Assembly (NCBI RefSeq): GCF_018499875.1
Contig: NZ_JAHBAY010000019.1
Span: 1-64,000 of the forward strand
DNA length: 64,000 nucleotides
Reading direction: 5' to 3'
From: Kineosporia corallincola
Lineage (GTDB): Bacteria; Actinomycetota; Actinomycetes; Actinomycetales; Kineosporiaceae
A program made the position numbers and the translations under genes. The notes beneath the pieces are model-generated. The model worked only from the letters and a program-made list of their open reading frames with translations, was not told the origin of the DNA and did no database searches. Positions 8,492 to 20,600 of the stretch are shown here, one piece after another; within the stretch, counting starts at the first letter, position 1, and each line of letters opens with the position of its first letter.

Positions 8492-8516
8492 GACTGAACT
8501 GTTTAGTCACTTGACT
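8492..8516. promoter_or_regulatory. Overlapping GACT/AGTC dyads, candidate MarR operator
   Basis: GACT-N9-AGTC (8492-8508) overlaps AGTC-N4-GACT (8505-8516) in an AT-rich segment about 30 bp upstream of the marR ATG. This arrangement suits autoregulation by a dimeric MarR protein. Confidence 0.5.
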
Positions 8517-8545
8517 ATCGGGTGCCCCAGCGGCACCCTGAAGTC

Positions 8546-8989
8546 ATGACCGAGAGCCACCCCCCTCGCATCCGGAGCCTCGAGCTGCTGCGGCCGATCC
8601 TGGCCACGCAGCGCAGGGCCGCGGAGGACTGGGCGCGAAGCCGCGGCCTCACGTTCGAGCAGGCGGTGGTGCTCGGATACCTGGAGCAGCGTCCCGGCGC
8701 CATGCAGAGGGACATCGTGGAGATGAGCCAGACCACACCGGCCAACATCTCGCTCATGCTCAAGACCCTGGAGGGGCGGGGCCTGATCGAACGTCGCACC
8801 GAGCAGGGCGACGCCCGCAGCAAACGGGTGTATCTCACCGATGACGGCGTCGCACTGGTGGCCGGCCTGAACGCGTCGATGGTCGAGGTCGACGAGGCGA
8901 TCTTCGAACCTCTCGACGCGGCCGAAATGGCCACGCTCGAAACGCTACTCACCAAGGTGAACAGCAAACTGCCGCACGGGCGACCGTAG
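8546..8989 (+). CDS. MarR-family transcriptional regulator
   Basis: A 147-residue winged-helix regulator: FEQAVVLGYLEQRPGAMQRD, IVEMSQTTPANISLMLKTLEGRGLI as recognition helix and RRTEQGDARSKRVYLTDDG as the wing. The ATG at 8546 fits the family length better than an in-frame GTG at 8522. MarR proteins commonly sense phenolic or drug-like ligands and control adjacent genes. The SGNH hydrolase and NTF2-like genes follow on the same strand and are candidate targets. Confidence 0.9.
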   Translation: MTESHPPRIRSLELLRPILATQRRAAEDWARSRGLTFEQAVVLGYLEQRPGAMQRDIVEMSQTTPANISLMLKTLEGRGLIERRTEQGDARSKRVYLTDDGVALVAGLNASMVEVDEAIFEPLDAAEMATLETLLTKVNSKLPHGRP

Positions 8990-9081
8990 CCCACCAGCTC
9001 ACCGTCGCACGCCGCTCGGCGTGCGGGCGATCCCGCCTGCCCACTCACGGGCCCACCACCACCTCACCAAGGACGTCCGCC

Positions 9082-10254
9082 ATGACCACCACAACCACAT
9101 CCACATCCAGCTCTCCGGCATGGGAGGCGACCTGGGCTCAGGCCCTTCCCGACGTACGCGCCGACGCCGAGCCCTTCACCGACGTCACCCTGCGATCGCA
9201 GCTACGGGCCGGGATCGGGGGCCAGCGCGTCCGCGTCGAGTTCAGCAACCGCTACGGCGACCAGCCTCTGGTCATCGGGCGGGTCGCCGTCACCAGCGAA
9301 GGCCGCAGCGCTGCGGCGCTCTTCGATTCCGGCGTGGGGTGCTCGGTCCCGGCCGGCGAGTCGGTCTGGACCGATCCGGTGGATCTGCCGGTCAAGGGAC
9401 ACGCGATGCTGACGATCGACTTCCACCTGCCCGAGCAGACCCGATTCCCAAGGCTTTTCGCCAGCGTCAGCGACTTCACCTGCCAGATGTCCGAACCCGG
9501 CGACCACGTGGGAGCCGATCGGTTCCCGGCCGTCGCGGCACCGCCCTTCCCGATGCCGGACGACGCCGACATCTCCGTGCACGAGAGCGGGCCCTTCCTG
9601 CACACCGTGGACGTCACGGGCACGGCCCGCCACGCGGTGGTGGTCTGCCTGGGTGACTCGATCACCGCGATGGGCTGGCCCGAAGCAGCCGCCGCCCTCC
9701 TGCCCGTGGGATCCGGTGTCTCGATCGTCAACCGGGGGATCCCGGGCAACCGGCTCCGGCTGGACGCCGGCGCACCGTACCGGTCGAACGGACGCTCCGG
9801 TCTGCATCGCTTCGCCGAGGACGTCCTGCTCACCTCGGGCGTAGCCCAGGTGATCGTCGCCCTGGGCACCAACGACCTGGGGCTCCCGGGTGAGTTCGAG
9901 CCCCTGAACGAGCTGCCCACCGCCGACGAACTGACAGCCGCCTACCAGAAGGTGCTCGACCAGGCGTCCAGCGCCGGCATCGCAGCCAGCATCGCCACCA
10001 TCGGCCCCCGCCAGGGGTCGGACAACCACGACACCGAGCGGGAACTGATCCGCAGCACCGTCAACGACTGGATCCGCACCCTCGGCCCCCGCTGCATCGA
10101 CTTCGACCAGGCACTGCGCGATCCCGCCTCTCCCCTCGCCCTGGATGCCCGGTACGACAGCGGCGACCACCTCCACCCCAGCGACGCCGGGCAGATGCAG
10201 CTCGCCGCCACCGCGGTATCCGCGCTGAAAGACCTGCATCATCGCCGCCCCTGA
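9082..10254 (+). CDS. SGNH/GDSL-family hydrolase
   Basis: A 390-residue esterase-type hydrolase. After an N-terminal beta-rich domain (residues 1-185), the SGNH core shows block I GDSITAMG (about 192-199), block II glycine in NRGIPGNRL, block III GTND (about 254-257) and block V DHLHPS with the catalytic Asp/His (about 357-362). No signal peptide is visible: the N-terminus is Thr/Ser-rich and hydrophilic, so it is probably cytoplasmic, although close relatives are often secreted. Likely activity is ester hydrolysis or deacetylation of a carbohydrate or small ester. An AAGGACG sits in front of the ATG. Confidence 0.88.
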   Translation: MTTTTTSTSSSPAWEATWAQALPDVRADAEPFTDVTLRSQLRAGIGGQRVRVEFSNRYGDQPLVIGRVAVTSEGRSAAALFDSGVGCSVPAGESVWTDPVDLPVKGHAMLTIDFHLPEQTRFPRLFASVSDFTCQMSEPGDHVGADRFPAVAAPPFPMPDDADISVHESGPFLHTVDVTGTARHAVVVCLGDSITAMGWPEAAAALLPVGSGVSIVNRGIPGNRLRLDAGAPYRSNGRSGLHRFAEDVLLTSGVAQVIVALGTNDLGLPGEFEPLNELPTADELTAAYQKVLDQASSAGIAASIATIGPRQGSDNHDTERELIRSTVNDWIRTLGPRCIDFDQALRDPASPLALDARYDSGDHLHPSDAGQMQLAATAVSALKDLHHRRP

Positions 10255-10306
10255 CCAGACACCCGCCCGACCCGCCCGACCCGTCACCAGCGAAAGCGAC
10301 CATCCC

Positions 10307-10849
10307 ATGACCACGACACCCCAGCAGCAGACAGATCACGACCGTGCGGTCGTCTCCGGCTTCTACGCCGCGATGACCCGGGCCGAGCAGAACGGCGGCT
10401 TCACCCCCGAGGACCTCGCCACCGTGGTGGACTTCTTCGAGAACGAACGCGAGGTGGAGATCAACCTTCCCGCTCCCGTCGGCGGCGTCTTCCACGGCCC
10501 CGACGACATCGCCGTCGGGCGCCATCGCATGCACGAACTGTGCGGTTTCACCCACCGCGACCACACCCAGGACGAGTACATCGCCGACGGACCCGGCCGC
10601 GTCATCTGCATCGGCGTGAACCACGGTGAGGACACCGAGGGCACCCCCTGGTCGATGACCGTCATCGAACTGGTCGACCTCGAGGACGGCAAGGTCATCC
10701 GCAAGCGCGTCTTCTTCCAGGACGCCGAGTTCCTCGGCCAGATCGCCCGCCAACGCGAAACCACGATCAAGGAAAGCCTCTTCGGCACCTACTGGACGAC
10801 CGACAACCCCCTGATCGCCCTGCGCGTGAACGGCACCATGCCCGACTGA
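10307..10849 (+). CDS. SnoaL/NTF2-like domain protein
   Basis: A 180-residue protein with the cone-shaped NTF2-like fold suggested by the helix AVVSGFYAAMTRAEQNGG, the strand VEINLPAPVGGVFHGPDDI, and the paired strands RVICIGVNHGED and WSMTVIELVDLEDGKVIRKRVFF. Proteins of this type act as isomerases, cyclases or dehydratases on small lipophilic molecules, or have no known activity. It starts 52 bp after the SGNH hydrolase and is probably cotranscribed. Confidence 0.75.
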   Translation: MTTTPQQQTDHDRAVVSGFYAAMTRAEQNGGFTPEDLATVVDFFENEREVEINLPAPVGGVFHGPDDIAVGRHRMHELCGFTHRDHTQDEYIADGPGRVICIGVNHGEDTEGTPWSMTVIELVDLEDGKVIRKRVFFQDAEFLGQIARQRETTIKESLFGTYWTTDNPLIALRVNGTMPD

Positions 10850-10901
10850 CATCCCGCGCGCCGGCCGACAGGAGAGGAACCGCGGTCCCCATCGCTGGAG
10901 T

Positions 10902-11293: not shown

Positions 11294-12481
11294 TCAGCGA
11301 ACTCCCCTCCGGCGGATCAGGCGCCCGGCCCGAACCCCGAAGACCACTCCGGCCCCGAGCAACGGAACCGCGCCGTTGCCCCGCAACCATGCCGGGCCAG
11401 AGGCCGGTGACGGTGACGGGTGTGATGCCCGGCCTGGGCCTGACACCGGGGCCGGGCCCGAGACCCGGGCCGATGCAGGCGCCAGGGCCGGATCCGGTGG
11501 AACTGCCGCCGAGGGTGGCCCAGGGGGCGTATCGGGAGCCCGCGTCGTGAACCCACCGGTGGCGCTCCACACGAGGGTGGCCAGCCCGACGAAAATCGCT
11601 TCCAGACCGAAGATGTAGGCAGCGAACTCGTGCCATCCCATCAGCGATGCGCCCGCCTGGTCCCCGGCCACCAGAACAGACAGGACGACGATCTCGCCGA
11701 AGCACATCGTGGCGACGGTCACGATCCCGGCGGCCCGCTCCAGAGCGTCCTGGGCCGGCCGCCGGAAGAACTGGGCCTCCACCGCGAGCGCGACGAACAA
11801 CAGCGGGACGACCTGGCTGGCCTGGGCGAAGAATTCCTGGTCCACCCGGGTACCGACGGCGTCGGGGTCGGCCAGGGCGAAGTCCCACAGCGCCCCGGCG
11901 ATCCAGGCGACGAAGGTACCGATGATCAGCGGCGCGAACGGCCTCAGCCTCTGCCACCCGGCCCGTGGGCGGCTCAGGAGTTCCCGGCGCGGATCGATGC
12001 CGAGGAAGACGGCCAGCATCAGGGCGAGCGCCACGATCCAGAGCAGGCACAGGCCGACGGACCAGACCAGGAGCAGCGGATCGTGGTACTCCCCGGCCGG
12101 GTTCCCCCATCCGACGGCCGCGAAGTCGATGGCCAGCGTCGCCAGGTACGCGACGAGGAACCAGCCGATCAAGTCCCGGCGCGGGAGCCTCGCGCCCAGC
12201 AGCCGGCGCAGGCGCACGGCCACGACGAACAGCACCGGCGCGGAGAAGGTGTCGACGCCGAGCAGGAGCAGGTCCCAGCCGTTCAGCCACCGGCCCAGGA
12301 GGTAGACCTGCGCGCTGTCGGCGACACCGCATCCGGGCCGGCGGTCGAGTTCGGCGCAGGCGTCGTACGCGGCGTTGACCAGTTCCTCGCTGAACGCGAA
12401 CGGCACGAAGAACAGGAACAGCAGCAGGGACGCCCAGGCGACCGCCAAAGGGCTGCGTACCGGCTGGCCCTGACCCGTCAT
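11294..12481 (-). CDS. Multi-pass membrane protein of unknown function
   Basis: A 395-residue protein with about seven or eight hydrophobic segments, starting with WASLLLFLFFVPFAF right after the N-terminus. The early extracytoplasmic loop has two cysteines (DACAELDRRPGCGV) that could form a disulfide. The last 100 residues are a Pro/Ser/Gly-rich tail followed by a basic end (RAGRLIRRRGVR), read as cytoplasmic. I do not recognise the family. The tail overlaps the decayed MMPL/LuxR patch, so the true C-terminus may have changed recently. Confidence 0.65.
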   Translation of the reverse strand: MTGQGQPVRSPLAVAWASLLLFLFFVPFAFSEELVNAAYDACAELDRRPGCGVADSAQVYLLGRWLNGWDLLLLGVDTFSAPVLFVVAVRLRRLLGARLPRRDLIGWFLVAYLATLAIDFAAVGWGNPAGEYHDPLLLVWSVGLCLLWIVALALMLAVFLGIDPRRELLSRPRAGWQRLRPFAPLIIGTFVAWIAGALWDFALADPDAVGTRVDQEFFAQASQVVPLLFVALAVEAQFFRRPAQDALERAAGIVTVATMCFGEIVVLSVLVAGDQAGASLMGWHEFAAYIFGLEAIFVGLATLVWSATGGFTTRAPDTPPGPPSAAVPPDPALAPASARVSGPAPVSGPGRASHPSPSPASGPAWLRGNGAVPLLGAGVVFGVRAGRLIRRRGVR

Positions 12482-12703: not shown

Positions 12704-13129
12704 GTGCTGCCGGAAATCCTCACGGGCGCCGCCGCTGCCGGGGGCACCGCCGTCGTCGCCGCCATGGCCGAAGACTCCTGGCAGCAGGTCAAGGCGCACG
12801 CCGTGCGCCTGCTGACCCGCGAGCCCGACGACCAGGACGCCGCCGAGCGCGTCGCCGGGCGCCTGGAGCGTTCCCGTACCGCCATCGAGACAGCCGCCCC
12901 GGCCCGGCGCGAGCAGGTGACCGCACAGCACACCGCCGCCTGGACGCTCGCGCTGGAGGAACTGCTCGAAGAGCACCCCGATCGCCTCGACAAAGTGCGT
13001 GAGTTCGCGCGGCAGAACGAGACTCACGTGGTGCTGAACATCCGGGCCCACGACCAGGCACAGGTGCCCGTGGTCGCCCGCGGCGTGCAGTACAACACCT
13101 TCGGCGTGCCACCCCGGCACGACGCCTGA
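12704..13129 (+). CDS. Small partner protein of NLR-like ATPase, with C-terminal shared motif
   Basis: A 141-residue protein encoded 13 bp before the NB-ARC/TPR gene. It has a short hydrophobic/Gly-Ala N-terminus (LTGAAAAGGTAVVAAMA), a charged helical middle (residues 28-105) and a C-terminal beta-prone segment, residues 105-134, ending VARGVQYNTFG. That segment aligns without gaps to residues 18-47 of the next protein (9 identities in 30: N, V, A, H, V, V, G, Q, N). Known bacterial NLR systems use such short paired motifs, C-terminal in the effector and N-terminal in the NLR, as amyloid signalling signals. I infer an effector or adaptor role; a catalytic domain is not recognised. Confidence 0.72.
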   Translation: MLPEILTGAAAAGGTAVVAAMAEDSWQQVKAHAVRLLTREPDDQDAAERVAGRLERSRTAIETAAPARREQVTAQHTAAWTLALEELLEEHPDRLDKVREFARQNETHVVLNIRAHDQAQVPVVARGVQYNTFGVPPRHDA

Positions 13130-13142
13130 GCCCACCGCCCCG

Positions 13143-15434
13143 ATGACCGACCCGACCACAGCGACCAACCCGACCAGCCCGACCACCGTGACCAACCCCG
13201 CCCCGGTGACCGTGCACGTCCATGCGCATCACGGATCCATCGTCTCCGCCGTGGGTTCCGGCACCCAGCACAACCACACCCACGAACCCGAACACGAACC
13301 CGGCGACGTGGCCCGCGGCTACGCCGACGCACGCCGGCGCGGGCTGGCACTCTCACTGGAACCACCCTCCGGGCACCGGGACGAGCACCGCCCGGTCCGC
13401 GGGCACACCGCCCTCATCCGGCACCTGGAACAGGTCGTGCTCTCCCCCGGCCCGGGCAGCACCCACGTCCTGCACGGACTGGGCGGATGCGGAAAAACCA
13501 GCCTGGCCCTGGAAATCGCACACCTCGCCGACCGGGCCGGCCTGGCGGTCTGGTGGGTCACCGCCGACACCCGCGCCAACCTCGAGACCGGCCTGCGCAC
13601 CCTGGCCACCCGCCTGGGCGCCGCCGAGTCCGAACTGACCCACCGGCACGCCCCGGACGTCCTCTGGGAACGCCTGCACGCCCTCGACCCCGAAACCCGA
13701 TGGCTGCTCGTGCTCGACGACGCCGAGCACCCCGCCGACCTGCTCGACAGCCCCTTCGGCACCCACGACGGCCGCAGCTGGCTGCGCCCGCACCCCGGCG
13801 ACACCGGAACCGTACTGGTCACCAGCCGCTCCGGCGGCAGCCCCTGGGCCTGGTGGTGCACCCAGCACGTCATCCACCCGCTGGCCACCGAAGACGCCGT
13901 GACCACCCTCTACGACCACGTGGGCCCCTGGGCCGGAGACACCCACGACGCCACCGCACTCGCCGAGAGCCTGGGCCGGCTCCCCCTGGCCCTGACCATC
14001 GCCGGGTCCGCGCTCGCCCGCAACGCCGACTGGCCCTGGCCGGAACCGGGCACCCCGACGACGTTCCGGGAATACCAGCAGGCCGTGCTGCGCGACGGCG
14101 CGCCCGACGCCGTGGACGGGATCGTCGCGCGGGTGTGGGACGTGGCGGTCCAGGGCCTGCGCTCGCGGGGCCACCACCGCTGCGAACAGCTCCTGGCCGT
14201 GCTGGCCACGATGGCCCAGACGCCGATCCCGGTCGCTCTCCTGCTGCCCACGGCCACGGCCGCGCAGACCCGTTCCCTGGCCGGCGTCACCGGCAACGAG
14301 CTGCGCGACCTGACCCGCGCGCTGGGCGAGCAGCACCTGATCGAACTACACAACGCCACCCCGTCCGTTCACCAGAAGCCGCGCGAGCTGAGCATTTTCA
14401 TGCATCCCCTGGTGCGGTCCGCGGCCCTGCGCGAGCAACCGGCGCCGGTCGCCGACGCCGTCCTGCTGGTGCACAACGCCGTGGTGAACCTGCTCGGCAT
14501 CCCGGACGAGATCAAGCTGTGGTCGTCGTGGCGGCTCATGGCCCCGCACGCCCACCACCTGATCTTTCTGCTGAGCGCCGCCCTCGACCGCGGCGAGCGC
14601 CTGGCGCCCGAGGTGGTGGCCCGGGCCGCCCACGCCGCCAGCCTCACCGCCCGCAGCCTGCACGTCCAGGGCGTCTACGACGTGGCCGGCGGCCAGTTCG
14701 AGGCGATCAACGCCCTCACCGGCCCGGTGCTGGGTGAGCGGCACCCGGAAACCCTGCGCTGCCTGCACTACATCGGCGTGCTGGAGCACGAGCGCGGCCA
14801 GCACGCCGAGGCCCTGCGCCGCCACGACCACGTGTACAGGCTGCGGCGTGAGGTTCTCGGGCCGGACGACGCCGAGACGCTGCGCAGCCGCCACTACCGG
14901 GCCCTGGCCCACCACGCCCTGGGCCAGGTGGACCAGGCCGAGCAGGAGTACCGCCAGGTGCTGGAGAAACGACGCCGGGTGCTCGGCCCCGACCACCGCC
15001 ACACCTTCGCCACCGAACACAACCTGGTGCGCGTGCGGCACGAACGCGGCCTGCTGAGCGAGGCCGCCCAGGAGTACGAGCAGCTGCACCGGCGCATGGT
15101 CACCGCACTCGGCCCCGACTACCGGCACACCCTGGTCACCCAGCACAACCACGCCATGGTGCTGCACGCCCTCGGCCGGCTCGACGAGGCCGAGGCCGGG
15201 TTCCGGTTCGTCTGCCAGGCCGAGACCGCCCTGATGGGCGCCGAGCACCCCACCACCCTGTCCGGGCGCTACAGCCTGTGCCGGGTGCTGGCCGACCGCG
15301 GCCTGAGCGAACAGGCCGAGCAGGAAAGGCTTTCCGTGCTGGCCGCGCAGGTCCGGGTACTCGGTGAGCACCATCCCGAGACCGTCATCACCCGCGAGCG
15401 AAAGCCGGGCCCGGCCCGCTCCGGCCCGATCTGA
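13143..15434 (+). CDS. NB-ARC/TPR STAND ATPase (bacterial NLR-like)
   Basis: A 763-residue signal-transduction ATPase. Order: a 50-residue His/Val-rich N-terminal motif region, P-loop GLGGCGKTS (112-120), Walker B WLLVLDD (187-193), sensor LVTSR (225-229), GRLPLAL helix and MHPLVR, which resembles the MHD region. From about residue 500 there are at least five 42-residue tetratricopeptide repeats of the kinesin light-chain type (LGERHPETLRCLHYIGVLEH, LGPDHRHTFATEHNLVRVRH and so on). Such proteins are off in the ADP state and oligomerise when the TPR sensor binds its target. In bacteria several are antiphage or cell-death switches. The tight pairing with the upstream small gene supports a two-gene conflict or signalling system. 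A role in ordinary regulation is possible. Confidence 0.88.
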   Translation: MTDPTTATNPTSPTTVTNPAPVTVHVHAHHGSIVSAVGSGTQHNHTHEPEHEPGDVARGYADARRRGLALSLEPPSGHRDEHRPVRGHTALIRHLEQVVLSPGPGSTHVLHGLGGCGKTSLALEIAHLADRAGLAVWWVTADTRANLETGLRTLATRLGAAESELTHRHAPDVLWERLHALDPETRWLLVLDDAEHPADLLDSPFGTHDGRSWLRPHPGDTGTVLVTSRSGGSPWAWWCTQHVIHPLATEDAVTTLYDHVGPWAGDTHDATALAESLGRLPLALTIAGSALARNADWPWPEPGTPTTFREYQQAVLRDGAPDAVDGIVARVWDVAVQGLRSRGHHRCEQLLAVLATMAQTPIPVALLLPTATAAQTRSLAGVTGNELRDLTRALGEQHLIELHNATPSVHQKPRELSIFMHPLVRSAALREQPAPVADAVLLVHNAVVNLLGIPDEIKLWSSWRLMAPHAHHLIFLLSAALDRGERLAPEVVARAAHAASLTARSLHVQGVYDVAGGQFEAINALTGPVLGERHPETLRCLHYIGVLEHERGQHAEALRRHDHVYRLRREVLGPDDAETLRSRHYRALAHHALGQVDQAEQEYRQVLEKRRRVLGPDHRHTFATEHNLVRVRHERGLLSEAAQEYEQLHRRMVTALGPDYRHTLVTQHNHAMVLHALGRLDEAEAGFRFVCQAETALMGAEHPTTLSGRYSLCRVLADRGLSEQAEQERLSVLAAQVRVLGEHHPETVITRERKPGPARSGPI

Positions 15435-15601: not shown

Positions 15602-17029
15602 GTGAGTGAGCACGACAGCGTCCAGATCGCGATCCTCGGCCCGCTGCGGGTGGGTCACGCCGGGGCCTGGCAGCCGGTCACCGCACCGATGGAACGTCAC
15701 CTGCTCGCGCTGCTGGTGGCCCGCGACGGGCAGCTCGCCACCGACGACTGGCTGATCAGCTACCTGTGGCGCGACCGGGCACCCCGCCAGGCCACCAACA
15801 CGCTCCAGACCTACGTCTCGCACCTGAGGCCCCTGCTGGAGCCCGGGCACGCGCCAGGCACCCCGTGGACCGTGCTGCGGCGCGAGTCCTCCGGATACCT
15901 CCTCACGGCCGGGAACATCGACGGACGCACCTTCACTTCCCTCACCGACAGCGGCATTTCGCACCTGCGGTCCGGATCGCCCGAGTCGGCCGAACGTGAC
16001 CTGCACGCGGCCCTGCGCCTGTGGCGCGACGACGAGGCGTTCGCCGACGTGATCGCCCCCGAACCGGTGCGGCGGATGACCGACCAGCTGAACGCCCAGC
16101 GCCTGCGCGCCTTCACGGCCTGGTTCCAGCTCCGGATCGACTCCGGCCGGGCCGACACGGTGCTCGATGCCCTGCGCGAGCAGCACACCCGGCACCCGTA
16201 CGACGAAGACCTCACCCGGCTGCGCATGCTCGCCCTGCACCGCTGCGACCGCTCGGCCGAGGCCCTGCGGATCTACGCCGAATCCGCCCGCGCGCTGCGC
16301 GAGGAGCTCGGCGCCGATCCGGGCCGGCCCCTGCGGGAAGCACACGCCCAGGTGCTGGCCGCCACGGCGCAGGGGGCCGATGCGGTCGTCGTCCACCAGC
16401 CGGTGGTAGCCCTGGCGATGAACCAGCCCGCGCTGCCCGACCCCGCCATTCAGCCCGCCCTCCAGCCGGGCCCGGCCACGAACCACCAGAGCTTTCAGGG
16501 ACGACGCTGGGCCCTGACGGCATCCGCCGCCGTCGTCGTCGCTCTCACCGCGGTCCTGCTCATCCGGACGCACCACGCCCCGGGCGCTCCCGGCGATCTC
16601 AGCGGCGCCACGGCCGGCGACGTGCACAGCGAGTTCGACCTCGAATTGCAGCCGGGGGTACTGCACGACCTGGACGTGCCGCCGGGCACGTCCACCGTGC
16701 TGCCGTTCGGTCAGGGTCCGCAGGCGGCCCGTGGGGATCTGTACCGTCCCAAGGGCGGCACCGACCAGGTGCAGGGAGCGCCCTCGGCGCAGGGTGCCTT
16801 CAACCAGTTCGACCTGGTCAGCGAACATTCCACCGCGACCGGCTGCCGCGCCCTGCTGCCCAAGGCGGGCGGGAACGTCGCCACAGCGAAACTGCGGGCC
16901 GGCAGCCGGATGTGCGTGCGCACGCACGAGGGCCGCTGGGCGCTGCTGGTGGTCACCGAGCTGCCGCCCGCACGGCTGGCGTCGCTGTACCTGCACGTCG
17001 TCGTCCTGAATCCCGAACCAGCGCGCTGA
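15602..17029 (+). CDS. Membrane-anchored SARP-like (winged helix + BTAD) regulator
   Basis: A 475-residue one-component regulator. It has an N-terminal OmpR-type winged helix (residues 8-100: IAILGPLRV, ERHLLALLVARDGQLATDDW, RQATNTLQTYVSHLRPLLE, GYLL), a bacterial transcriptional activation domain (about 105-255, with EALRIYAESARALREELGADPG), a Pro/Gln linker, a single membrane helix (303-321) and an outer domain of about 150 residues with two cysteines. SARP/AfsR proteins are normally soluble. The membrane helix and outer domain suggest a ToxR-like architecture that senses outside and binds DNA inside. It uses a GTG start and lies between the NLR pair and two membrane proteins. Confidence 0.85.
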   Translation: MSEHDSVQIAILGPLRVGHAGAWQPVTAPMERHLLALLVARDGQLATDDWLISYLWRDRAPRQATNTLQTYVSHLRPLLEPGHAPGTPWTVLRRESSGYLLTAGNIDGRTFTSLTDSGISHLRSGSPESAERDLHAALRLWRDDEAFADVIAPEPVRRMTDQLNAQRLRAFTAWFQLRIDSGRADTVLDALREQHTRHPYDEDLTRLRMLALHRCDRSAEALRIYAESARALREELGADPGRPLREAHAQVLAATAQGADAVVVHQPVVALAMNQPALPDPAIQPALQPGPATNHQSFQGRRWALTASAAVVVALTAVLLIRTHHAPGAPGDLSGATAGDVHSEFDLELQPGVLHDLDVPPGTSTVLPFGQGPQAARGDLYRPKGGTDQVQGAPSAQGAFNQFDLVSEHSTATGCRALLPKAGGNVATAKLRAGSRMCVRTHEGRWALLVVTELPPARLASLYLHVVVLNPEPAR

Positions 17030-18328: not shown

Positions 18329-19232
18329 CCCACCCGTGCCAGCCCCATCCGCACCCACCCCGGCCGAGCCACCGCCGGACGAGCTGCACAACCAGACCGA
18401 GTTCATCAAGTTCGCCGTCCAGGTCGTCGCCCCCACCACCGTCGTGACCGCACTGCTCTACTACTTCGGTTATGTCGCCACCCGGGCCCGGTTCGCCTAC
18501 TTCGGCATCGACCTCGACCTGCTCGGCCTGTCCCAGCAGGCGCTCCTGATGCGCAGTGTCGGCGTCATGTTCCCGCCGCTGGTGCTCGCGCTGACGGTGG
18601 TGGCAGCCGGTCTGTGGACCCACGTGACGCTCAACCGGCTCCTCGCCTCCGGGCGGCATCCGCAAACCCTGCGCCGCGTGGGCTTTCTCGTGATCGTCGT
18701 CGGCCTGCTCGTGCTGCTGCGGGGGACGGCGGGCATGGTGATCCCCTCGATCGCCGAGAACGAGCCACCCGCCACCACCCCGCTGTGCCTGGCCTCCGGC
18801 GCTCTCGCTCTGGCCACCGGCCGCCGCATCCTGGCCCGCACATCCCCCGTCGCGCCGGCACGGGGCAGCCGGTACGAGCTCTCCGCGTGGATCTGCGTGT
18901 GGACGATCGTGGCCCTCGGAAGTTTCTGGGCCGTCAACAGTTTCGCCGGGGTGTACGGGCGTGGGCAGGCCACGGTCGACAGCGAGCGCCTGGACGAACG
19001 GCCCCGGGTGATCGTGGACACGAAGGAGTCGCTGCGGGTGTCCTATCCGGGCGTGCGTGAGGATCTGCTCGACGGCCCGGACGACCGGCGGTTCGGGTAC
19101 CGCTCGTCCGGCTGGCGCCTGTACGCGGCGACCGGCGAGCAGATGCTGCTGATCCCCGACGGCTGGCGGCAGGCCGGGACGGTGCTGCTGGTTCCGGTGA
19201 ACGACGACGTCCGGGTGCAGATGTACCCGTAA
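18294..19232 (+). CDS. Multi-pass membrane protein of unknown function
   Basis: A 312-residue protein. The GTG at 18294 is chosen because AGGAGGG lies 7-8 nt before it; the gene overlaps the end of the preceding one by 35 nt. After a Pro-rich cytoplasmic N-terminus there are four or five membrane segments (AVQVVAPTTVVTALLYYFGY, VMFPPLVLALTVVAAGLW, RVGFLVIVVGLLVLLRG, AWICVWTIVALGSFWAVNSF) and a C-terminal soluble part of about 95 residues (ERLDERPRVIVDTKESLRV to the end). Similar proteins occur in other actinobacteria, but I know of no function. Confidence 0.7.
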   Translation: MNPRQLRRPRPDPPVPAPSAPTPAEPPPDELHNQTEFIKFAVQVVAPTTVVTALLYYFGYVATRARFAYFGIDLDLLGLSQQALLMRSVGVMFPPLVLALTVVAAGLWTHVTLNRLLASGRHPQTLRRVGFLVIVVGLLVLLRGTAGMVIPSIAENEPPATTPLCLASGALALATGRRILARTSPVAPARGSRYELSAWICVWTIVALGSFWAVNSFAGVYGRGQATVDSERLDERPRVIVDTKESLRVSYPGVREDLLDGPDDRRFGYRSSGWRLYAATGEQMLLIPDGWRQAGTVLLVPVNDDVRVQMYP

Positions 19233-19244
19233 GCCTCGACCGGG

Positions 19245-19472
19245 ACCACTGGGATGATGACGGCATGCGCCGCACCGAGTTGAGCGCGGCCAGCAACAAG
19301 CCACCCTTGAGGACGAACGTGTCCCGATGCGCGCTCGCAGCCAGGCGGGCCAGGAACCGTTCGAGAACGTAGAGAACGAGCAGCTCCTGGGTGGAGCGCG
19401 CGGTCGACGCGCCAGGTTTTGCAGGTCCAGATAGGCCCGCCCGTCGGCGCTGGCCCGTGTCGGCCTGCTCAC
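19245..19472 (-). pseudogene. AbiEii-type nucleotidyltransferase toxin, frameshifted and truncated
   Basis: Starting at a GTG that overlaps the TGA of the AbiEi gene, the minus strand reads ADGRAYLDLQNLARR. After a frame change it continues as STQELLVLYVLERFLARLAA and TFVLKGGLLLAALN. This is the N-terminus of AbiEii (nucleotidyltransferase toxin; FVLKGG is the start of the NTase core). Sequence similarity ends near 19250, before the catalytic DxD region. The toxin is therefore inactive, having lost about 75 percent of its length. Confidence 0.8.
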
Positions 19473-20056
19473 GATGCTTCCAGGACGTCGAGGGCGTTGC
19501 GCAGCGGACCAAGGACGTTGAGGGACCGGGCGAGCTCGATGAGTTCGCTGCGGTCAGCGTCGCGCCGGGCGAGATAGCGACGCAGGGCACCGAAGGCGAG
19601 CGGCTCGCCGATCCGATGGCGTAGCCGCATCAAGTCGACGACGGTCCGGGTAGCCGAGTACATCCGGACAGGTTCACCGGGCGCGGCTTCGAGATGTGTC
19701 AGGCCAAGATCAAATGTTCCCGGCTCGAACCGCGACACCTCTACCGGTGGAAAGGCGATCTGGGGTGGCCGGGTTCCCCGTGGGACCGCAATGCTCACAA
19801 CGGCGGGAAGCTCGTCGGTGAGATCCCAGACCGACGCTGCCGAGATCAAGCAGATCGTGGCGCCCGGAGCCCGACGAGCCACAGCGAGGAAATCGGGGTA
19901 AGACGGCACGGGGGCGTCAGCGTGCCGGAAGACGCCCCTGGAAAGTTCCAAAACCTGCCCGGTATCGCGCCATCGGTACACATCACGAGGATGAATGCCG
20001 GCCTGACGGGCTTCGGCCAGAGTGAAGGTCGTTGGCAGCGATCCCAGCCCTTCCAT
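19469..20056 (-). CDS. AbiEi-type antitoxin/repressor of a type IV toxin-antitoxin system
   Basis: A 195-residue protein. The N-terminal winged helix (FTLAEARQAGIHPRDVYRWR, VLELSRGVFRH) is the AbiEi_4-type DNA-binding domain. The C-terminal part (ATICLISAASVWDLTDELPA, VSIAVPRGTRPPQ, YSATRTVVDLMRLRHRIGE, ALRRYLAR) is the AbiEi antitoxin domain. The ATG at 20056 is chosen because it sits at the edge of an inverted repeat that would be its own operator; the frame stays open upstream but lacks similarity there. In intact AbiE systems this protein represses the operon and neutralises AbiEii. Here it is left with a broken partner. Confidence 0.85.
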   Translation of the reverse strand: MEGLGSLPTTFTLAEARQAGIHPRDVYRWRDTGQVLELSRGVFRHADAPVPSYPDFLAVARRAPGATICLISAASVWDLTDELPAVVSIAVPRGTRPPQIAFPPVEVSRFEPGTFDLGLTHLEAAPGEPVRMYSATRTVVDLMRLRHRIGEPLAFGALRRYLARRDADRSELIELARSLNVLGPLRNALDVLEAS

Positions 20057-20104
20057 GGATATAAACGCAGCCACATAGGATCGAGGTGGCAACGTTTGTA
20101 TCCA
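20056..20104. promoter_or_regulatory. Inverted repeat, candidate AbiEi autorepression operator
   Basis: Two 20-nt arms (20056-20075 and 20085-20104) match at 16 of 20 positions (core TGGATA, AAACG, GCCAC) across a 9-nt spacer. They abut the abiEi start codon. AbiEi proteins are known to bind paired inverted repeats in their own promoter. Confidence 0.65.
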
Positions 20105-20600
20105 GCGAGCGGAGTTGCGTCGGGCGGCTTCCCTGCCCGCACGAAGACTCCGCCAGCGCTCCCGGACAACCGGGCGCGACTTCCAGCCCGCCAAGAACAT
20201 CCCGAGCATCTCGTCGCGCCGACGCCTACAGGGAGCAGCCAATCCGTTCGCCCAGGGAACACAGGAGAGCCGGCACCTCCTCCGGTGCCCTGGCGACCGC
20301 CTACGTCGGCACGGGTTCGGCCGTCACCGCGCCGGTCCGGCGAGTAGGCCAGAGATCAGGCGCTCACCGATGAACCGCGACAGCACAGCCATCAGCGAAC
20401 GTCAGCGCTCCTGACACCCAGGGCGCAGAATGCCACCGCCCTGCCGGCATCACCTCTGATCAGCAACGATTTCTGCATCTGCCCTCGCCCTCGGCAGGAG
20501 CCATCTGACCAAAATCCCGATCAGGCGCCCTGACGCACACGACGTGCGTCCGGCGTCCACCAGCACGCCGGCAGCCACCGCGAACGCGACACCCGAACGC
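20105..20600. other. Intergenic stretch without a supported gene
   Basis: About 500 bp between abiEi and the oxidoreductase operator. Several short frames on both strands lack domains and ribosome-binding sites. Nothing certain is seen; it may be decayed sequence at the border of the AbiE island. Confidence 0.4.

Follow-up and report, generated by a model that had tools for sequence, protein, structure and literature searches.

Amyloid signaling pairs of the Bell-BASS/NLR kind were reportedly described by Dyrka and colleagues in 2020 (J Mol Biol). According to four articles, the motifs BASS1 to BASS10 occur C-terminally on Bell-domain proteins and N-terminally on adjacently encoded NLRs; the pairs are stated to be mostly actinobacterial and cyanobacterial, and the profiles are said to overlook others (PMC7889193, PMC8086366, PMC12261475, PMC9815663). 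Here, a candidate pair was analyzed in the first 64,000 nucleotides of contig NZ_JAHBAY010000019.1 of Kineosporia corallincola (the window; GC content 71%, source genome 8.2 Mb). It consists of a gene for a small putative effector and a gene for an NLR-like ATPase of the STAND type, which lie on the same strand with a gap of 13 bp; both open reading frames (ORFs) and their adjacency had been given in an earlier note on this DNA and were found again. The two genes probably form a signaling pair of the Bell-BASS/NLR type, most likely a further example of the described kind and not a new kind. The parts of the locus are the following.

12704..13129, + strand: effector gene, 141 residues, GTG start (ORF; the start fits the family consensus M-L-x-E-x-L)
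12704..13015, + strand: effector residues 1-104, predicted five-helix bundle, putative Bell-type domain (AlphaFold2)
13016..13105, + strand: effector residues 105-134, C-terminal common motif (two profiles built without the window; predicted to lack secondary structure)
13040-13105, + strand: motif core, effector residues 113-134, IRAHDQAQVPVVARGVQYNTFG
13143..15434, + strand: NLR-like gene, 763 residues, ATG start, encoding tail, NB-ARC and TPR (ORF; Pfam)
13203..13274, + strand: NLR residues 21-44, diverged N-terminal motif copy PVTVHVHAHHGSIVSAVGSGTQHN (alignment, profile scores)
13446..14018, + strand: NB-ARC ATPase domain, NLR residues 102-292, P-loop GLGGCGKTS at residue 112 (Pfam)
14607..15398, + strand: helical repeat (TPR) region, NLR residues 489-752 (Pfam TPR_12/TPR_10; helical repeats in the AlphaFold2 model)

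Recurrence of the tail motif on both proteins

The earlier note had aligned effector residues 105-134 with NLR residues 18-47 without gaps, with nine identities in 30 positions including GVQYN / GTQHN, and this alignment was reproduced. At least nine identities over 30 ungapped residues were reached in 8 of 300 shuffles of the last 66 effector and the first 66 NLR residues, and the Smith-Waterman score of 44 for the window tails was equalled in 6 of 1,000 shuffles. Judged from the two sequences, the pairwise match taken alone appears modestly above chance and is suggestive, not strong. It becomes convincing because the motif recurs in the same two positions in other genomes.

At least 106 relatives of the NLR were found at E ≤ 1e-20 (window included; 8,000 candidates scored). 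By eye, their N-termini before the P-loop vary: some are TIR-like or membrane-helix-like, many are ASGQGRVYQAxGDQYI-type tails, and 11 of the listed relatives have a tail resembling GQAQQAVQGSGIQYNYFG. The 11 NLRs of the first profile (NLR-side, window left out) were chosen by eye from the 106 listed, and P0032, P0034 and P0035 among them are nearly alike in the motif.

The ORF frames of 79 NLR-relative loci, which came from a search limited to its best 80 matches, were scanned with this profile. In five loci, the motif was found on both partners, C-terminally on a small neighboring protein and N-terminally on the NLR: L013 (Micromonospora foliorum), L014 ([Actinomadura] parvosata), L028 (Nonomuraea aurantiaca), L076 (Actinomadura oligospora) and L081 (an actinobacterial metagenome-assembled genome). 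Nine of the ten matches scored 13.8-31.6 bits; the L081 NLR, with 7.1 bits, was outscored by two frames at other places that look spurious (8.7 and 8.1 bits). In four of these loci, the effector gene directly precedes that of the NLR; in L076, it lies downstream on the opposite strand. With L090/L146 added, the motif is present on both partners in six further loci. Orthologous pairs with the motif on one partner alone, which the earlier note had named as contrary evidence, were not encountered: in the loci found through the NLR, all five motif-bearing small proteins had an NLR with the motif (weak for L081, 7.1 bits), and the same holds for L146.

The small proteins adjoining NLR relatives are homologues of the window effector and have the same C-terminal tail. 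Their identity to it is 39% (L076), 38% (L014 and L028), 28% (L013) and 22% (L081), and four of these five start with M-L-x-E, as the window effector does.

The NLR-side profile matched residues 113-134 of the window effector with 18.8 bits, compared with 6.8 bits for the best shuffled effector (2,000 shuffles, 1,672 reported). An effector-side profile of 72 unique motifs, taken from 80 of the 87 motif-bearing homologues with the window excluded, gave 26.9 bits for the same protein. On the first 90 residues of the window NLR, the NLR-side profile reached 9.7 bits for the best domain (6.3 for the whole protein); this match covers just the eight residues GSGTQHNH, and the best shuffle reached 3.2 bits (2,000 shuffles, 1,005 reported). 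GSGxQxN is retained in the window NLR tail, whereas the half of the motif with QAQQAV is lost, with G40 and Q42 being invariant across the 12 aligned NLRs (window and 11 others). Compared with 117 effector tails, the NLR tail had a best score of 57, which 2 of 500 shuffles of this tail matched.

The first pairing set was drawn from 108 loci (L005-L083, L085-L113), of which 46 had a standalone effector hit, 73 a P-loop ORF and 24 the two on separate ORFs. After one loss to a length filter and addition of the window, 24 pairs of a standalone effector and a P-loop protein per locus were available. NLR tails in the pairing tests were taken from frames running from stop to stop, and some of their letters are out of frame; the L014 NLR was corrected by hand, and L124 (genome G006), which is the same pair as L081, was counted once. 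The cognate score (sum of doubly centred tail alignment scores, relatedness of the organisms not removed) was 431.6, and the largest value in 20,000 permutations was 265.6 (0 of 20,000 as good). When the test was restricted to this motif class (seven pairs), 8 of 5,040 permutations did as well as the cognate pairing. A second test with 21 pairs (20 class-wide loci and the window, overlapping the first set) resulted in 352.1 versus a maximum of 210.1 in 20,000 permutations. In that set, 10 of 21 effectors, the window's included, ranked their own neighbor first, and matched tails of other motif types were found in L149, L177, L182 and L198.

A chance likeness of two low-complexity tails would be in line with the pairwise identities, which 8 of 300 shuffles reached. 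It is extremely improbable in view of the motif in both positions in six other loci, the cognate tails that pass the permutation tests and the 18.8-bit match of the NLR-side profile to the window effector tail.

The effector family, its predicted fold and its fusions

Single-sequence searches with the window effector found itself alone (1 match among 526 candidates) and, in 58 genomes, its own genome alone. For this protein, Pfam and NCBIfam yielded nothing above cut-off and PADLOC nothing at E ≤ 1; its homologues gave no convincing family either, with six compared to PADLOC and seven to Pfam. A profile of six effectors identified at least 174 proteins at E ≤ 1e-3 (8,000 candidates scored). 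Among the 120 members listed, 88 have the motif at 10 bits or more, window included. The consensus read off the listed homologues is about x-[AG]-[FYH]-D-Q-A-Q-Q-A-V-Q-G-[HQS]-G-[VI]-Q-[NYH]-[NV]-x-F-G; four motif strings had no occurrence in the text of the literature searched. Many listed effectors without the motif end in other tails, e.g., RAEASGSGRVYQAGRDQTINER. In a tree of 115 effector domains, the main tail label changes at least 10 times, 3 of these changes being forced by well-supported branches; the window effector stands on a long end branch (1.09) and its placement was not achieved.

Two different tails, FDQAQQAVQGHGTQNVTFGG and RAETSGQGRVYQTGRDETINER, follow each other in P0172 (Nonomuraea jabiensis). 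The effector-domain genes of L149, L182, L177 and L158 have other tails that recur in a neighboring ORF (e.g., NSQVLGSGTM, IIQLGQGTQSI) and are candidates for further signaling-motif families.

Across the class, the effector domain was found in 58 of 394 genomes, its own included, corresponding to 16 of 138 genera. For the class-wide set, 74 of 84 non-window match places were fetched. The motif is present at 10 bits or more in 2 of its 67 standalone genes: L146, whose NLR partner scored 17.5 bits, and L164. The latter is a 10.4-bit match of nine residues inside another tail type; this other tail is seen again in an overlapping frame, and no NB-ARC was found at L164.

L213 was excluded from the class-wide count, as its first domain failed the effector profile (earlier weak match, E 2.3e-8). 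The protein at L213:4594-6498 (- strand) has a different N-terminal domain and a tail, HDQAQMPIQGQGVQDNRFGFP, close to that of the window effector (score 81). Its neighbor of 475 residues shows no NB-ARC by Pfam, weak Ig-like matches, a membrane helix by eye and a weak motif match near the N-terminus (score 38). From this locus, the motif may also serve pairs without an NLR.

The predicted structure of the effector (AlphaFold2, 78 sequences, mean pLDDT 87.6) comprises helices at residues 2-20, 26-37, 44-63, 66-90 and 92-104, followed by an unstructured tail; 10-residue blocks up to residue 100 have a mean pLDDT of 89-98. Helix 1 (2-20) is rich in Ala, Gly and Val. A computation of helical periodicity was weak, with 66 of 2,000 permutations equally high. 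In the NLR model, based on the alignment of 12 NLRs, residues 1-69 have a pLDDT below 50, and the ATPase and repeats are mostly well predicted. The NLR scored 27.7 bits with NB-ARC (cut-off 23.5) and 102.1 bits with TPR_12 of Pfam, and in a sequence search its repeats match kinesin-light-chain-type TPRs in the PDB.

N-terminal fusions of the effector domain to NB-ARC-TPR proteins were found in 12 of the 79 loci, all of them under a Streptomyces title, in ORFs of 1106-1129 residues (L018-L023, L025-L027, L029, L032 and L083); their NLR match covers window NLR residues from about 59-70 to 752-762. No motif copy before the P-loop was seen by eye in the four fusion proteins inspected. The class-wide set contains fusions in 6 of 74 loci. 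That the domain occurs as an NLR fusion in some species and as a separate, tail-paired protein in others is independent evidence that it is the output of the NLR.

Such genes escape notice in annotation: among the plasmid records with an effector-domain match, 6 of 9 are annotated 'hypothetical protein', and of the 10 listed NLR matches on plasmids, 7 are called 'tetratricopeptide repeat protein' and 2 'FxSxx-COOH system'. In viral contigs, no encoded relative was found (89 pattern matches, 0 confirmed). A seemingly orphan effector is now placed within a family of at least 174 proteins, the tails of which differ and are in many cases matched to a neighbor protein. This family offers concrete pairs for testing amyloid specificity between bacterial NLRs and effectors.

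Possible mechanism and competing explanations

By analogy with the described pairs, the TPR part would sense a trigger, either a phage component or another stress, upon which the NLR would oligomerize. The clustered NLR tails would take up a beta-arch amyloid core, and this core could template the effector tails into the same fold. The helical bundles gathered in this way would then act on the membrane, leading to growth stop or cell death. Amyloid assembly, membrane action, cell death and an anti-phage function are thus what the analogy would predict for the window pair.

Several results weigh against a signaling pair of this type. The N-terminus of the window NLR scores 0.6 bits with the effector-side profile, a value reached by 218 of 5,325 background N-termini and exceeded by its own best shuffle (7.5 bits). 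Other NLRs scored 29.2 (L028), 24.3 (L081), 23.1 (L076), 16.7 (L146), 13.5 (L013) and 8.2 bits (L014), the last because the motif is cut by the limit of the first 90 letters; the comparison is uneven and favors L028 and L081, since the profile includes their effectors (P0108 and P0113) and not that of the window. In addition, both window proteins align better with the proteins of L076 than with each other: the effector scores 50 with the L076 NLR, the NLR scores 57 with the L076 effector, and the score between them is 44; of the 24 partners compared, each ranks the other second. In the class-wide set, 47 of the 67 standalone effector-domain genes had no adjacent P-loop ORF by a crude regular expression. 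Helix 1 is no clear transmembrane helix (best 19-residue Kyte-Doolittle mean 1.42, from residue 5); a mean of 1.6 was reached by 41 of the 120 listed family members. Of the 30 matches that Foldseek found for the effector in the PDB, not one reached E ≤ 0.001, and kinship to the HeLo/MLKL-like fold is therefore not supported. The sequence search against solved structures gave nothing convincing either (best E 0.011, an engineered spike fragment).

The low NLR score bears on the possibility that the pair is of the same kind and decaying, with an NLR-side motif that has drifted and an effector that is no longer templated. The 0.6 bits, the NLR-side match confined to GSGTQHNH and the long branch of the effector fit this idea. 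However, neither ORF is interrupted, the window NLR shares G40 and Q42 with the 11 other NLRs, and 2 of 500 shuffles of its tail equal the best score of this tail against the 117 effector tails. A large distance between NLR tail and effector tail is also seen in L013 and L081 (pair score 42 each, compared with 44 in the window). Decay of the pair is considered quite improbable.

The common tail might also be a homotypic docking peptide that does not form amyloid and acts by ordinary induced proximity, as EADs or death-like domains do. What is seen of the tail (position, conservation, predicted disorder) would suit such a peptide, and EADs are presented as exchangeable homotypic adaptors of related systems (PMC7159879). 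However, the motif is short, rich in Gly, Gln, Asn and Val, borne on a tail, unstructured in the models and arranged in BASS topology, and amyloid-like aggregates are reported for a BASS3 peptide (PMC8086366). The docking peptide is regarded as unlikely, and a Bell-BASS/NLR-type pair with an amyloid tail is preferred.

It is conceivable, if rather doubtful, that the motif represents a signaling amyloid family outside the published BASS1-10, exchanged among actinomycete helical-bundle effectors, and that at L213 it serves another effector domain together with a protein that is no NLR and appears to be membrane-anchored. Identity of the motif with BASS3 was rejected; against the motif profile, the published BASS3 peptide reached -1.9 bits for its best domain. 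The class-wide effector tails were not significantly similar to this peptide (best score 37, compared with a mean of 28.95 and a maximum of 46 for shuffled peptides), and BASS3-like tails are not claimed for L147, L148, L156 and L164.

Genomic surroundings and comparison with described systems

The effector family is represented by one clear copy in the genome of K. corallincola. Another match (E 0.0014) was taken as spurious, as its frame overlaps an ORF that looks like a peptide-synthetase type. NB-ARC was matched 11 times at E ≤ 0.01, with eight matches above the cut-off, window included. Another NLR of this genome, L117 (G000:C4:152621-153190), carries LDDLVQARDVSGGIHFYG as its N-terminal tail, apparently another signaling tail; by eye, a small protein with a matching tail was not seen directly upstream.

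The effector was not found in 5 congeners, and the gene at 11294-12481 beside the pair is likewise missing there. Within the family (13 genomes), it is present in its own genome and in G006 alone, where the pair is the same as L081. In the congener G002, the window block 8494-10850 is conserved at 83% and synteny breaks near the pair; beyond this block, the window and the 19 kb around it in G002 gave no alignment longer than 150 bases. The pair seems to lie in a variable region, as is often the case for defence genes or an accessory conflict gene, which is circumstantial evidence. A promoter scan found none.

At 19469-20242 (- strand), 3.5-4 kb from the pair, an AbiEi_4 antitoxin-type regulator is encoded (above cut-off), adjoined by an ORF at 18934-19590 (- strand) whose match to the AbiEii toxin model is below the cut-off and confined to positions 1-25 of 238. 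Together (18934-20242), they look like the remnant of a type IV toxin-antitoxin system. Directly downstream of the pair, 15602-17029 (+ strand) encodes a SARP/BTAD-type regulator with an extra C-terminal part, a homologue of which in the congener G004 is 50% identical.

This downstream gene bears on a reading of the NLR as an FxSxx-COOH or AfsR-like regulator, with the small protein as its accessory and no role in immunity or cell death. The best NCBIfam match of the NLR, FxSxx_TPR (NF040586, 252.9 bits), points in the same direction. However, the match remains below the cut-off of 300 with a best stretch of 87-435, and the paired tails and domain fusions would be left unexplained, so that a regulator of this kind is very unlikely. 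The window NLR has the NB-ARC-TPR architecture of a relative of the FxSxx-COOH TPR proteins and differs from them in not reaching their cut-off.

The earlier note had also seen a resemblance to RHIM. The RHIM tetrad is [IV]-Q-[IVLC]-G, which the window cores VQYN / TQHN do not fit. The proposal of an amyloid-type NLR/effector pair is supported by the homologues, the preference for cognate tails, the structure predictions and the domain fusions; its likeness to RHIM is not supported. What the window shares with RHIM, PP and BASS3 is a short Gly/Gln/Asn motif common to receptor and effector, and with the PP core, given as NxGxQxGxN (PMC9815663), it has G-x-Q in common. The GSG-x-Q-x-N look of the NLR tail is similar to the fungal sigma motif, whereas, against the motif profile, the published sigma peptide scored 1.4 bits for its best domain.

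Compared with the Bell-BASS/NLR pairs, the NLR-side motif copy of the window is strongly diverged, and the Bell identity of the effector rests on architecture and predicted fold, not on a published Bell profile. The window pair agrees with them in the adjacent genes, the predicted helical-bundle effector with a C-terminal motif, the NLR with a putative N-terminal motif, the actinomycete host and the occurrence of several motif families on one effector domain.

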